The notes under the pieces: model-generated
Told to the model about the DNA's origin: nothing
What the model saw: only the letters and a program-made list of their open reading frames with translations
The model's database searches: none
Source: Natronomonas halophila
GTDB lineage: Archaea; Halobacteriota; Halobacteria; Halobacteriales; Haloarculaceae
Direction: 5' to 3'
DNA: 64,000 nt
Assembly: GCF_013391085.1 (NCBI RefSeq)
Contig: NZ_CP058334.1
Location: forward strand, 2,542,001 to 2,606,000
Program-made: the position numbers and the translations under genes
Part shown: positions 43,975-50,132 of the stretch, in pieces
Position numbering within the stretch: the first letter of the stretch is position 1
How the letters are laid out: every line of letters begins with the position of its first letter

Positions 43975-45840
43975 ATGCCAGATAAAGACTCCCTTTCACG
44001 GAGAACGTTCCTGAAGGCAACGGGTGGTACCGCCGGTGCCGTCGCGATTGCTGGCTGTGGTGACAGCGGCAACGGAAACGGTAACGGCAACGGTGACGGT
44101 GACACGCCGACGCCGACGCCCGAAGACGAGCCCGTCTATACGACGGAAGCCCCGAAGGCTCAGGAAGCCTGGGAGACCGTCGAGAACAACCCCGGTCCCG
44201 AAGCCGAGGACATCCGTACCGAGGCGTTCATCGAGATCGAGGAAGCGGTACGCGACGACATGGTCCTCCTCCCGCTGTACCACGAACTCACCGAGTGGTT
44301 CTGGTACGACTGGGTCGACATGCCGAAGTTCGGTTCGCTCGGCATCCACCGCCTCCAGCACAACACTACCTCCGTCGACACCTCCTCCGACCAGAAATCC
44401 GAGAACGTCCTGGTGATGATCAACGGGACGATGTCGACGATCGACCCCATCCGCTCGGACGACACGGCCTCCGGCCGGGTCATCCAGCAGATGTACGAGA
44501 ACCTCGTCAACTACATCAACGGGAACCCGGAGATCGAAAACCAGCTGGCCGAGTCCATCGAGGTCTCCGACGACGGCCTGACCTACACCTTCAACCTCAA
44601 GCAGGGTGTCACGTACCACGAGGGCGGCGAACTGACTGCCGCCGACGTCAAGTACTCGATCCGCCGCCTCGCCGAATCGTCGAACAGCGTTCGGGCGAAC
44701 TTCGTTCTCGACAGCGGGTTCCTCGGCGTCGAACACGAGACCGACGACGAGGGCAACGTCGTCCCCGACTCGCTGGCCGTCGAGGCCGTCGACGACTACA
44801 CCCTCGAAATGACGCTGACGACCCCGCAGCCGGCCGCACTCGACATTCTCGCCTACGACGCCTTCGGCGTGATGCCGGAAGGCACCGTCGGCGATATTGA
44901 GGGCTACGACGGCGAGGTCACCGCCGAGGAAATCAACAACTCGTACGCGAACGGTACCGGTCCGTTCCAGTTCGAGGAGTGGTCCGTCGGCGAGCAGGCC
45001 GAGGTTACCGCCTTCGGCGACTACCACGGTGATGGTCCGGCACTCGACGGTGTTCGCTGGAGCATCATCGAGGACGACAACGCCCACCAGACGGCGTACG
45101 TCGAGCGGAACCTCGACCTGTTCACGATTCCGACCTCGTTCTACAACCCCGACAACGTCGACGCCGAGGAGGACGACCAGGGCCGCGACGTCGGTACCTA
45201 CGGTCCCCTCGAGAACGGCGACACCGTCAACTATCTCGGTGTCCCCACCCTCTCGGTGTTCTACGTCGCGTTTAACGTTCCGCAGGTGCCGAAGAAGGTC
45301 CGCCAGTCCGTCGCGTACGTCACTCACCACCAGGAACTCATCGACCAGGTCTTCAAGGGTCGTGGCGCGCCCGCGTTCAGCTTCACGCCGCCGGGCATGT
45401 GGCCCACGGGCCCCGACGGCTACAACCAGTGGGTCGACAACTGGCCCTACTCGCGCAACGAGACGGACCGAGAGTCCGCAACGCAGGCGCTCAACGAGGC
45501 CGGCTTCACGGCCGACGACCCCTTCGAGATGACGCTGACGACCTACGACTCGGAGGTTTTCCAGGAGTTCGGCCGCCTCACCCGTGACAAGCTCGACGGG
45601 ACCGGTATCAGCCTCGAACTCGAGACGGCGCCGTTCAACACGCTCATCAGCCGCGGTGAGGAGGGCGACCTCGAGTTCTACTCGCTGGGCTGGATCTGGA
45701 GCTGGGTCGACCCCGCCTACGGCCTGTTCGGGTTCGAACCCGAGAACACCGACACGAGTATCATGCCCACCGAGACGGACGGGTACTACCTCGACTGGCA
45801 CGTCGGTCTCGAGGACTACGAGAGCGGCGACGGCAGCTAA
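43975..45840 (+). CDS. dppA: Peptide ABC transporter substrate-binding lipoprotein, circularly permuted
   Basis: A 621-residue SBP_bac_5-type protein. Tat signal SRRTFLK (8-14) and lipobox AIAGC (Cys28) are followed by a Gly/Asn and Thr/Pro linker. Residues about 60-135 (AWETVENNPGPEAEDIRTEA, LLPLYHELTEWFWYDWVDMP, GSLGIHRLQHNTTSVD) match the C-terminal end of the family, whereas the canonical N-terminal strand starts only near 144 (ENVLVMINGTMSTIDPIRSD) and the protein ends at WVDPAYGLFGFEPENTDTS, after which normal members would continue into the missing tail. So the tail has been moved to the front. It captures peptides outside the cell. Confidence 0.85.
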   Translation: MPDKDSLSRRTFLKATGGTAGAVAIAGCGDSGNGNGNGNGDGDTPTPTPEDEPVYTTEAPKAQEAWETVENNPGPEAEDIRTEAFIEIEEAVRDDMVLLPLYHELTEWFWYDWVDMPKFGSLGIHRLQHNTTSVDTSSDQKSENVLVMINGTMSTIDPIRSDDTASGRVIQQMYENLVNYINGNPEIENQLAESIEVSDDGLTYTFNLKQGVTYHEGGELTAADVKYSIRRLAESSNSVRANFVLDSGFLGVEHETDDEGNVVPDSLAVEAVDDYTLEMTLTTPQPAALDILAYDAFGVMPEGTVGDIEGYDGEVTAEEINNSYANGTGPFQFEEWSVGEQAEVTAFGDYHGDGPALDGVRWSIIEDDNAHQTAYVERNLDLFTIPTSFYNPDNVDAEEDDQGRDVGTYGPLENGDTVNYLGVPTLSVFYVAFNVPQVPKKVRQSVAYVTHHQELIDQVFKGRGAPAFSFTPPGMWPTGPDGYNQWVDNWPYSRNETDRESATQALNEAGFTADDPFEMTLTTYDSEVFQEFGRLTRDKLDGTGISLELETAPFNTLISRGEEGDLEFYSLGWIWSWVDPAYGLFGFEPENTDTSIMPTETDGYYLDWHVGLEDYESGDGS

Positions 45841-45997: not shown

Positions 45998-47074
45998 ATG
46001 AGCCGCTGGAGATACTTCTTCAAGCGGCTATTACTCTCGGTGCCCGTCCTGTTCCTCGTGATGACGGTCATTTTCGTCGTCCTCCGGATGGGGCCGCTTG
46101 ACCCCGTCGCGGCGATGCTTGGTCCAGGGGGGTTATCCGGGGCGAACGCCGAGGCGATACGCGAGAACCTCGGGCTGAACCAGCCACTCTGGCAGCAATA
46201 TATCGACTTCATCACTGACCTGATTACGTTCAACCTCGGGCAGTCGTGGGTCCTCCACCCCAACCGCACCGTGTTCGAACTGCTCCGTGCGTTCGGACCG
46301 CGAACCCTGTGGCTCGGGTTCTGGTCGATTCTCCTGCCGCTGTTTATCGGCATCCCGCTCGGTTTCTACGCGGGGATGAACCCGAACAGTTGGGGCGACT
46401 ACATCGCCTCCTTCGGCGGTATCATCTGGCTGGCGATGCCGAACTTCTGGCTCGGCATCATGCTGTTGACCGTGCTTCGGCGGACCGACGGCGGCGACGG
46501 TCCGCTCGGCTTCGACTGGTATCAGTTCGGGCCGAACACCGACAGCCTCATCGGCGCACCGTCGCTCGACTTCGTCGACGTCAGCAGTTGGGCCGACCTC
46601 GGCGTCGTCTCGCTTCCGACCGGCCTCTCCTTCGAGTGGATGACGCTGGCGGTCGCCATCAAGGTCATCCTGCCGGCCGCCATCGTTCTGGGGTCGGCGT
46701 CGATGGCCTCGGAACTCCGAATCGGTCGGACGGCCGTTCTGGAAACCATTAATTCGAACTACGTCGAGACGGCCAAGGCCAAGGGCCTCTCGAGTCGCGT
46801 CATCGTCTGGAAGCACGTCTTCCGGAACGCGCTGATTCCGCTACTTCCGATTATCACGAACGAGGCGTTCCTGCTCATCGGCGGGTCGGTCATCGTCGAA
46901 CAGGTCTTCAACATCAACGGCATCGGGAAACTGTTCTTCCAGTCGGCCGTTCAGGGTGACCTGCCGCTTGCCGGAGCGCTCATCTACATCTTCACACTCA
47001 TCATCATCTTCCTGAACATCGTACAGGACCTGCTGTACACCGTTCTCGATCCACGCGTGGGGTACGACCAATGA
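45998..47074 (+). CDS. dppB: Peptide ABC transporter permease (DppB type)
   Basis: A 358-residue permease. Six membrane helices; the first begins at residue 10, followed by the family loop with NLGQSWV. The cytoplasmic EAA-like loop reads YVETAKAKGLSSRVIVWKHV. Residues 160-200 contain an extra outside loop (RRTDGGDGPLGFDWYQFGPN). It overlaps dppC by 4 bases. The gap before it (45841-45997) holds a GC stem with a T-run near 45850-45873, a possible partial terminator after the binding protein, and a TATA-like GTATAT near 45941, so the membrane genes could also be transcribed separately. Confidence 0.9.
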   Translation: MSRWRYFFKRLLLSVPVLFLVMTVIFVVLRMGPLDPVAAMLGPGGLSGANAEAIRENLGLNQPLWQQYIDFITDLITFNLGQSWVLHPNRTVFELLRAFGPRTLWLGFWSILLPLFIGIPLGFYAGMNPNSWGDYIASFGGIIWLAMPNFWLGIMLLTVLRRTDGGDGPLGFDWYQFGPNTDSLIGAPSLDFVDVSSWADLGVVSLPTGLSFEWMTLAVAIKVILPAAIVLGSASMASELRIGRTAVLETINSNYVETAKAKGLSSRVIVWKHVFRNALIPLLPIITNEAFLLIGGSVIVEQVFNINGIGKLFFQSAVQGDLPLAGALIYIFTLIIIFLNIVQDLLYTVLDPRVGYDQ

Positions 47075-48783
47075 GCACTCAGACAGACGACATGACGCTC
47101 CGTGAGCGTATCGTTACGAACCCACGTCCGGCGCTGCTGTGGTTCGCCGGACTGGCTCTGCTGGTCGCCGTCGAACTCGGGCGGTTCGCACGCGGCGTCA
47201 TCGCGTTCGGCGACGCCCTCTGGTTCCTCATTACCGGCCTCGGCAAGGGCCCCGGCTGGGTCGAAGGCAACGTCGCCGGCACGCTCGGGTCCGCGGCCGG
47301 CAGTATCGCGTACCTGCTGACGGCGTTGTTGTTCCTGGGACTCGCGGCAATCGTCGTCAAATGGCTGTTCGTCCCGATTTCCATCGTTGACCGACTCGGC
47401 ATCGAGCGGAGCGCCGGCCAGGAGGAACTCATCGAACGCGGGATCATCGCACTCGGCCTCGGCGTCTTCGCGGCGCTGCTCGTCTGGACGCCCCTCGGCG
47501 GCGTTCTCGATATGATTGTCACCGCTATCAAGGGCGGCATCGAGTCGGTTGCCTCGATGCAGACGCTGACCAGTCGCGAGACGATTCCGAATCAGGGGTA
47601 TCAGGACCCCAACGGAAGCGGCTGGGAAGGGACCTTCATGGGCCTCTCGCCCGCGTGGGCGTGGGCGGTCCGCGTGCTGGTGATTTACGCCTACGCCTTC
47701 CTCCTGTTCGGCTGGCTCTGGAAGGGCTACGACGTCTTTCGCGAGCACTACCGCGAGGCCGACTGGACGCCCCGCGACGACAGCATCGACCGTTTCCGGA
47801 CACACTACTGGGGCATCTTCGGACTCGTAATCGTCTTCGCCTTCGTCGTGATGGCCATCTGGGCGCCCGCTCTCGGCCCCGTCACGGCCGAGGGCAACCT
47901 GTACAGCCCGTACGAAAACGAGTTCCAGTACACCGAAAACGGCGAAGTCAAGACGATTACCCACGGCGCGGCCAACATCAACACCCGTTCGCAGGGCGGA
48001 GACGCCAACGTCGGGCCGATGAGTTACGACCAGTACAACCGGTGGGCGCCGCTCGGTACCAATCAGGACGGCAAAGACCTCTTTACGTTCGTGGCCTTCG
48101 GGGCCAGAACGTCGCTTGTCATCGGTATCACCGCCATCGGTCTCGGGACGCTCATCGCGCTGGTGTTGTCGCTCGTGACGGCCTACTACAAGGGGCTGGT
48201 CGACCTCCTGACCATCATCGCGAGTGATACCATCATCTCCATTCCGGCGTTCCTGATGGTGTTGCTGTTATCGGTGGTTTTCCAGGAAGCCAACCATCCG
48301 ATAGCCAGTATATACGACGGTGGCTTCCTGTTGGCACTCATCTTCGCGGGGGTGTACTGGCCGACGCTGTGGCGGTCCATACGTGGCCCATCCTTGCAGG
48401 TCGCCGAAGAGGAGTGGGTCGACGCCGCCAAGAGCTACGGCCAGAGCCCGCTCATGACGATGCGAAAACACATGGCACCATATATCGCGAGCTACATCAT
48501 GATTTACGCGTCGCTGCTGTTGGGCGGTATCATCATCGCGACCGCCGCGCTTTCCTTCCTCGGGCTCGGCATCAACCCGCCGACCCCCGAGTGGGGGCGT
48601 ATCGTTTCCTCCGGCCGCTCGTACGTCTCGACGTCGTCGTGGCACATCTCGACGCTGCCGGGCGTCATGATCGTCCTCGTCGTCACCGGGTTCAACGCTC
48701 TGGGTGACGGCATCCGAGACGCCATCGACCCCGAAAGCGATATCAGCGGTGGCGACGCCGCCGCCACCGGGGGTGGTGGCTGA
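47071..48783 (+). CDS. dppC: Peptide ABC transporter permease (DppC type) with long N-terminal extension
   Basis: A 570-residue permease, nearly twice the usual 300. The conserved core starts around residue 235 (FRTHYWGIFGLVIVFAFVVM) and includes the EAA loop EEEWVDAAKSYGQSPLMTMR. The first 230 residues add about four membrane helices not found in bacterial DppC, plus an outside loop. It overlaps the next gene by one base (TGATG). The C-terminal tail is glycine-rich. Confidence 0.87.
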   Translation: MSTQTDDMTLRERIVTNPRPALLWFAGLALLVAVELGRFARGVIAFGDALWFLITGLGKGPGWVEGNVAGTLGSAAGSIAYLLTALLFLGLAAIVVKWLFVPISIVDRLGIERSAGQEELIERGIIALGLGVFAALLVWTPLGGVLDMIVTAIKGGIESVASMQTLTSRETIPNQGYQDPNGSGWEGTFMGLSPAWAWAVRVLVIYAYAFLLFGWLWKGYDVFREHYREADWTPRDDSIDRFRTHYWGIFGLVIVFAFVVMAIWAPALGPVTAEGNLYSPYENEFQYTENGEVKTITHGAANINTRSQGGDANVGPMSYDQYNRWAPLGTNQDGKDLFTFVAFGARTSLVIGITAIGLGTLIALVLSLVTAYYKGLVDLLTIIASDTIISIPAFLMVLLLSVVFQEANHPIASIYDGGFLLALIFAGVYWPTLWRSIRGPSLQVAEEEWVDAAKSYGQSPLMTMRKHMAPYIASYIMIYASLLLGGIIIATAALSFLGLGINPPTPEWGRIVSSGRSYVSTSSWHISTLPGVMIVLVVTGFNALGDGIRDAIDPESDISGGDAAATGGGG

Positions 48784-50132
48784 TGGCGGTCGAACAACGG
48801 CGCGAATCCACGAGCAACCGTTCCGAGGCTATCGTGACGGTCCGGAACCTCCAGACCGCGTTCTTCACCGACAAGGAGACCATCCGCGCGGTCGATGGGG
48901 TCTCCTTCGACCTCACGCCCGGTGATACGGTCGGTATCGTCGGCGAAAGCGGGTCCGGCAAGAGCGTCACGGCCCGCTCGATTATGGGCCTCATCGAATC
49001 CCCGGGCCGCGTCCTCGAAGGGTCGAGCATCCGGTTTAACGACCTCGCGACGGTACGTGAGTTCGCCGAGGAGTTCCCGAACCGGACGGCGGACATCAGT
49101 TCGCTGGACGACGAGTACGACCCGGCCGAACTGTTCGGCCGGTCCGAGGTCGACGCGACGCCGCTGGATTTCGGCTACGAATCCGTCGACGAAGCGACGG
49201 TGGCGGACTTCGTCGCGGCCGGGTATGGCGACGACCTCGGCTTCGTCGACGAGAACGACTGTGTCTTCGTCACCGAGGGCGACGCCGACTCGCCGCAACA
49301 CATCGAGGACGGCTTCATCGAAATCTCGCGCCTCAGCGGCGAGGCCCAGCGTGCCATGCGTGGGAGTAAAATCGCGATGGTCTTTCAGGACCCGCTGACC
49401 AGCCTCAACCCCGTCTACACCGTCGGCAACCAGATAAAGGAGGCACTCAGTCTCCATCAGAACCTGGAGGGTCAGGAAGCGACGCGGGAGGCCATCCGCC
49501 TGCTGGAGGCGGTCGGGATTCCGGACGCGCGGCGACGGGTTCGGGAGTATCCTCACCAGTTCTCCGGCGGGATGCGCCAGCGTGCGGTCATCGCGATGGC
49601 GCTGGCCTGTGACCCCGAGGTGCTCATCTGTGACGAACCGACGACGGCCCTGGACGTGACGATTCAGGCACAGATTCTCGACCTGCTCGCCGACCTTCAG
49701 GAAGAGCGGGACCTCTCCATCATGTTCATTACCCACGACATGGGGGTCATCGCGGAGGTCACCGACCGCGTCAACGTCATGTACGCGGGCGAAATCGTCG
49801 AGACGGCGGGCGTCGAGTCGCTGTTCGATAACCCGAAACACCCCTACACGCAGGGGCTGCTCCGGTCGATTCCGGGCGAGCAAAGCGGCGAACGGCTCGA
49901 AACCATCGAGGGCAACGTCCCAACCCCGAACGAACCGGCGACCGACTGCCGGTTCGCGCCGCGGTGTCCGAAGGCCTTCGGTGACTGCGAGGAGGTCCAT
50001 CCCGTCCCGGTCGAAGTCGACGAGGAAAGCGACGGCCACACCGCCGCGTGTCTCCTCTACCCGGAGGGGATGCCGACCGAGCAAGCCGTCGACTACCACA
50101 TTCAGAAGGAAACCCGAGGTGAGACGCGATGA
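48783..50132 (+). CDS. dppD: Peptide ABC transporter ATPase (DppD type) with an inserted domain
   Basis: A 449-residue nucleotide-binding subunit. Walker A GESGSGKS (54-61), Q-loop FQDP (Gln202), signature FSGGMRQR, Walker [14 protein letters not shown] and the OppD-type cysteine region near the C terminus ([16 protein letters not shown]). Residues 88-177 are an acidic insertion ([40 protein letters not shown]) between the second beta strand and the Q-loop, where other members have a short turn. Confidence 0.9.

Follow-up and report, generated by a model that had tools for sequence, protein, structure and literature searches.

Rotated block orders in haloarchaeal family 5 solute-binding lipoproteins, with a very likely circular permutant in Natronomonas halophila

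Overview

The first gene of a dppABCDF-like operon in Natronomonas halophila very likely encodes a solute-binding lipoprotein (SBP) of family 5 (cluster C) that has undergone natural circular permutation and remains the receptor for the Dpp-type importer whose genes follow. It lies in the window, the 64,000-nucleotide stretch of the genome analyzed here, and is followed by genes for two permeases and two ATPases (Table 1). All pieces of the canonical protein are present and homologous, none is duplicated or lost, the rotated order recurs in many genomes, and three different orders occupy one operon slot. No experiment bears on the permutation, and the position of the moved piece in space is unmeasured. 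An earlier note, made from the sequence alone, had called this a circularly permuted peptide-binding lipoprotein; the permutation held, and peptide as the ligand has not been shown. The finding is larger than that note, with at least four cyclic orders among the homologs and repeated change of order.

Architecture of the protein

The limits of blocks A, B, and C were set by comparison with relatives, in which the canonical order is A-B-C. PF00496 covers residues 186–587 (profile positions 1–360 of 368; E = 1.2e-62; 212.6 bits vs a curated cut-off of 32.4); thus, the canonical core is colinear and is not followed by any of the ∼75-residue tail. Block C is absent from the C-terminus. The canonical order with the tail last is usual in SBP_bac_5 proteins and not demanded by the profile; this protein instead reads C-A-B. 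The match of the signal to PF10518 (TAT_signal; E = 1.7e-4, 21.8 bits) falls below the cut-off of 22.7. A circular permutant should contain every segment once in rotated order, with its native termini bridged by a short linker and its new termini in loops, and this protein does so (by junction comparison and by DSSP of the AlphaFold2 model). The placement of the moved segment at residues 60–135, of the core from about 144, and of the stop at 621 in the earlier note held to within a few residues, as did, by comparison with canonical homologs, its statement that the segment is C-terminal in canonical proteins and that this one stops where it should follow. The motif given there for the segment, RxxLYxxAxxxxxDxxPxxxxxHS, is only loosely met (IRTEAFIEIEEAVRDDMVLLPLYH).

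Table 1. Positions of the permuted SBP gene, its parts, its operon partners, and two further SBP genes (window coordinates unless a locus is named)
Feature	Position	Strand	Basis
Permuted SBP_bac_5 lipoprotein ORF, signal-C-A-B, 621 aa	43975..45840	+	ORF, PF00496 match, block order
Tat signal (SRRTFLKATG) and lipobox ending AGC, residues 1–28	43975..44058	+	Sequence, PF10518
Low-complexity G/N/D/T/P linker, residues 29–55	44059..44139	+	Sequence
Block C, residues 56–138, helix-helix-strand; the canonical C-terminal tail, here N-terminal	44140..44388	+	blastp to canonical tails, AlphaFold2
New joint of native C-terminus to native N-terminus, about residues 131–143, TTSVDTSSDQKSE	44365..44403	+	Junction comparison
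Block A, residues 144–485, canonical N-terminal strand to loop past PPGMWPTGPDGY	44404..45429	+	Comparison with relatives
Block B, residues 486–612, ending GYYLDWHVG, where canonical homologs continue with block C	45430..45810	+	Relatives, junction comparison
dppB-like permease	45998..47074	+	Same gene order downstream of A-B-C, C-A-B, and B-C-A SBPs
dppC-like permease, 570 aa with N-terminal extension	47071..48783	+	Operon order
dppD-like ATPase	48783..50132	+	Operon order
dppF-like ATPase	50129..51463	+	Operon order
A2-B-C-A1 SBP	L257:3275-5143	-	Fourth cyclic order
L149 SBP, distant SBP_bac_5 subfamily, B-C-A	L149:4503-6188	+	PF00496, phmmer

Block C is the displaced canonical tail

By blastp, residues 56–138 are 51% identical over 77 amino acids to the C-terminal tail of the canonical homolog L016 (E = 2.5e-21) and 38–43% identical to four other canonical haloarchaeal tails (L018, 41%; L019, 38%; L020, 43%; L024, 42%). 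The nearest canonical homolog, L133, is 66% identical over residues 140–610, and there the segment is C-terminal. The four C-A-B relatives found first have the same order as the window protein (L013, L014, L015, and L017; 72, 57, 54, and 44% identical, respectively), and so the order is neither chance nor the assembly fault of one genome. Block C of L133 (A-B-C) is closest to those of the C-A-B proteins L045 and L046, as are its A and B, and all three blocks of L017 (C-A-B) have canonical L118 or L108 as their nearest relative. Since block C thus has the same nearest relatives as A and B, it changed place within its own gene. In the close pairs that were compared, every block, the moved C included, varies more at third than at second codon positions, the usual purifying pattern, in block C just as in A and B.

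An assembly or annotation artifact in the N. halophila genome can be all but dismissed. Nothing found speaks for it. The genome is in a single 3.2 Mb contig, and 39 distinct sequences share the order, drawn from many genomes that include several one-contig assemblies. The assembly error that the earlier note had named as a refutation is therefore excluded by recurrence, and the haloarchaeal survey that it had proposed gave those same 39 sequences.

Fold prediction

The AlphaFold2 model of the window protein (38 C-A-B sequences) has a pLDDT of 89.6 and a pTM of 0.87. In it block C is formed with high confidence as two helices (13–25 and 29–49) and a strand (52–64, all in model numbering); the C-terminal ∼40 residues are less confident (block means 33–78). 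This last feature speaks for a rival reading, in which residues 56–138 are an extra N-terminal domain that merely resembles the tail and the C-terminus is truncated or is complete without it. Against it, the tails of clearly canonical homologs share up to 51% identity with block C, and homologs 66% identical elsewhere carry block C once, at the C-terminus, with none having it at both ends. A separate domain beside a complete C-terminal tail would also have refuted the earlier note, and the model shows no complete tail without the segment. The extra-domain reading is very unlikely.

VIA matches of the model to OppA, DppA, and related structures have Z scores of 22–25 over about 400–430 residues, as the two-lobe fold of cluster C requires. 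The solved structures align only to model residues 85–569 (blocks A and B), without placing block C, and in the rows checked the matched PDB ranges stop before the chain ends (1–438 of 507 in 1dpp, 1–445 of 517 in 1ola); such unmatched tails are what a rotation predicts, because the aligner keeps sequence order. Rejoining the window chain in canonical order, a check suggested in the earlier note, gave nearly the same phmmer scores against the PDB as the native order, with slight extensions for 5isu and 6i3g; with a tail so weakly conserved to the bacterial chains, this comparison does not decide. A profile of canonical homologs reached the tail in few PDB chains (5yh5, to profile position 522). 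AlphaFold2 gave no usable model for the B-C-A protein L105 (18 sequences; pLDDT 47). That the window protein folds like DppA/OppA, binds a ligand, and docks on DppBC is inferred.

Cyclic orders among homologs

A tblastn search of 60 related genomes gave pieces in three arrangements, which were verified on translated ORFs; C-A-B is seen in the window, L013, L014, L015, and L017, for example, and B-C-A in L022 and L027–L030. With block profiles and wider sets, and after duplicates were taken out, the distinct homologs comprise 99 A-B-C, 39 C-A-B, 36 B-C-A, and 2 A2-B-C-A1 proteins, and all four orders are rotations of one cycle. Named C-A-B carriers include Natronoglomus mannanivorans and Natronorubrum sulfidifaciens; those of B-C-A are species or MAGs of Halosimplex, Haloquadratum, Halorhabdus, Halolamina, and Halapricum. 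The A2-B-C-A1 order occurs in two genomes (L257 and L271, 49% identical) and is cut inside A, in a variable loop (HET...YKPGS); a scan of viral contigs with the A2-B-C-A1 protein as query gave no match. No protein with any block twice, or with block C at both ends, is present among the distinct homologs surveyed. In the SBP of L127 (MAG Halobacteriales archaeon SW_9_67_24) the match is lost past A position 234 with the frame still open, which we read as a frameshift or assembly fault.

Joints and the route of rotation

The C-A-B joint is a short linker between the native C- and N-termini, with NxTxVEGDxELNLIN as its typical sequence; in canonical proteins the tail finishes with ...NNVTLDE and block A opens with ...ELNLIN. 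In the C-A-B clade the linker is often 5–10 residues (e.g., HNRTEVEGDSELNLIN), and the window joint has about 13. A short linker is expected if the native termini lie close together, and it supports the argument of the earlier note that the mature termini are near enough for permutation to be feasible. The B-C-A cut lies between PGGxxAYxxH and YPYG.

The canonical C-terminal helix-helix-strand segment stands at the head of the mature protein and is joined by the short linker to the canonical N-terminal strand, and the new C-terminus sits where that segment was cut off. The permutation may be tolerated through the closeness of the native termini and a long flexible linker that would allow the anchor almost anywhere. 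The route would be tandem duplication and fusion of the gene and then trimming at both ends, which is likely and remains unproven; no tandem-duplicate intermediate was present among the homologs surveyed. The L257 protein bears TVEQ at both termini (16 matching bases out of 21 by an eye count), which could be a remnant of duplication, but it is short and of low complexity. Alternatively, the gene might have split into separate genes that fused again in another order. In favor of such fission, the blocks form clean units joined by short linkers. Against it, no gene for a single block came to notice incidentally, and the possible terminal repeat in L257 weakly favors duplication; fission seems unlikely.

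The operon and its locus

The slot SBP-B-C-D-F is common to the A-B-C, C-A-B, and B-C-A forms; for A2-B-C-A1 the view is limited to dppB, dppC, and part of dppD in L257 and to dppB in L271. In one genus, the operon lies at the same locus in two species, G282 (A-B-C) and G308 (C-A-B), with 90–92% DNA identity in both flanks, and between these flanks the whole dpp operon (L173 vs L184) is only about 75% identical. A divergent version was therefore probably taken up by one of the two, and it is likely that operon versions were replaced at a fixed locus in this pair.

We asked whether the N-terminal extension of DppC goes with the permutation, and it does not. It also accompanies A-B-C proteins in the window's part of the tree and thus follows the clade rather than the SBP order. 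Separately, the DppD of the B-C-A operons and of several others lacks a match to residues about 92–186 of the window DppD; this is an insertion between the first ATPase part and the later motifs, and matches split there.

History of the order changes

Six order changes are needed on the tree of the rejoined SBP and six also on that of the four partner genes (the A2-B-C-A1 pair was left out of both). Approximately unbiased (AU) tests on the SBP reject a single C-A-B clade (P = 4e-69 with L017, 0.004 without it). The partner genes reject it as well (P = 6e-5 and 2e-6), and they also reject a clade of the C-A-B members, L176, and L215 that excludes the G282 operon (P = 8e-4). Block order defined the test groups, but the trees were already known when the third group and the reduced sets were picked.

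It may be that C-A-B arose once in the window's large clade, and that the A-B-C members inside it are reversions or transferred operons and not remnants between separate gains. The C-A joints of different C-A-B subclades are alike (VEGDxELNLIN, EGSDELRMIN), and the divergent operon between conserved flanks in the G282/G308 pair shows that operon replacement occurs. On the other side, four independent gains cost the same as one gain and three reversions (hand count, operon tree), and L017 has a separate origin on either reading (P = 4e-69 above). The evidence does not at present decide between one gain and several.

Rotation in other SBP subfamilies

Rotation is found in more than one SBP subfamily. 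The L149 protein (Table 1) matches PF00496 in two stretches, the best placing profile positions 1–258 at residues 295–549; by phmmer to 5u4o, its residues 262–548 pair with chain residues 53–339, and 70–206 with 356–487. Among its relatives, L319–L326, L333, L334, and L336 are A-B-C and L290, L305, and L337 are B-C-A, and the more distant L327–L331 and L338 also read B-C-A. The Halocatena salina relative of L338 is publicly annotated merely as "ABC transporter substrate-binding protein." A Mesorhizobium match that seemed to span a B-C-A query was unhelpful, as it starts outside the annotated gene.

A bolder reading is that the start point of the fold is interchangeable in haloarchaeal evolution, one orthologous importer locus having been rotated repeatedly, both from A-B-C to C-A-B and in reverse, with similar rotations arising independently in other SBP subfamilies, possibly as the shift of the lipid anchor is harmless or tunes docking. 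We would as readily doubt this reading as accept it.

Ligand and tether

In DppA, D436 (precursor numbering) grips the dipeptide (PMC12136057). Most canonical and B-C-A members have GW..D at the equivalent position; residues 572–576 of the window protein are GWIWS, with Ser at the ligand-contact Asp position, and GWxWS is shared in the window's clade by most C-A-B members and by nested or sister A-B-C members alike. No counterpart of R383, also a dipeptide-gripping residue of DppA, was seen by eye in the haloarchaeal profile. The Ser and the unseen Arg weaken the claim of a dipeptide ligand and not that of an importer receptor, which follows from the operon context with two permeases and two ATPases; peptide binding and uptake are inferred. 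The substrate may be something other than a plain peptide.

The lipid-bearing residue 28 now leads into block C. By the domain boundaries of OppA, this would shift the tether from domain I to domain III. That the N-terminal lipid tethers a different face of the protein, as the earlier note had proposed in saying that the tethered end changes, is inferred only from sequence order and the position of the lipobox.

Relation to known systems

The window protein resembles DppA/OppA (PF00496; 1dpp, 1ola) in profile, in fold over A and B (Z about 24), and in operon partners, but theirs is the unrotated order, and DppA has D436 where the window's clade has Ser. Canonical haloarchaeal Dpp SBPs (e.g., in Halorussus and Haloarcula) are direct homologs, about 42–66% identical and mostly in the same operon, but are A-B-C with the tail C-terminal. 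Circular permutation as such is already known (PMC3320104). Most natural cases on record are single, ancient differences that set one protein family apart from another. As in swaposin and DNA methyltransferases (PMC3320104), all pieces of the haloarchaeal SBPs are kept and their order is rotated; unlike in those, the orders lie at one orthologous operon slot and have changed repeatedly. The DNA methyltransferases have a duplicated intermediate (PMC3320104), whereas none was seen among the haloarchaeal SBPs. In the open-access literature searched, nothing describes natural permutation among solute-binding proteins or a recurrence like the one seen here; this search leaves most subscription papers and all bioRxiv preprints uncovered.

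Annotation based on profiles passes over such rearrangements. Within one orthologous family, whose operon partners stay the same, there are four cyclic orders and also close pairs of unlike order, and so the survival and course of a permutation become directly testable. The place of the lipid anchor is separable from the rest of the importer receptor.
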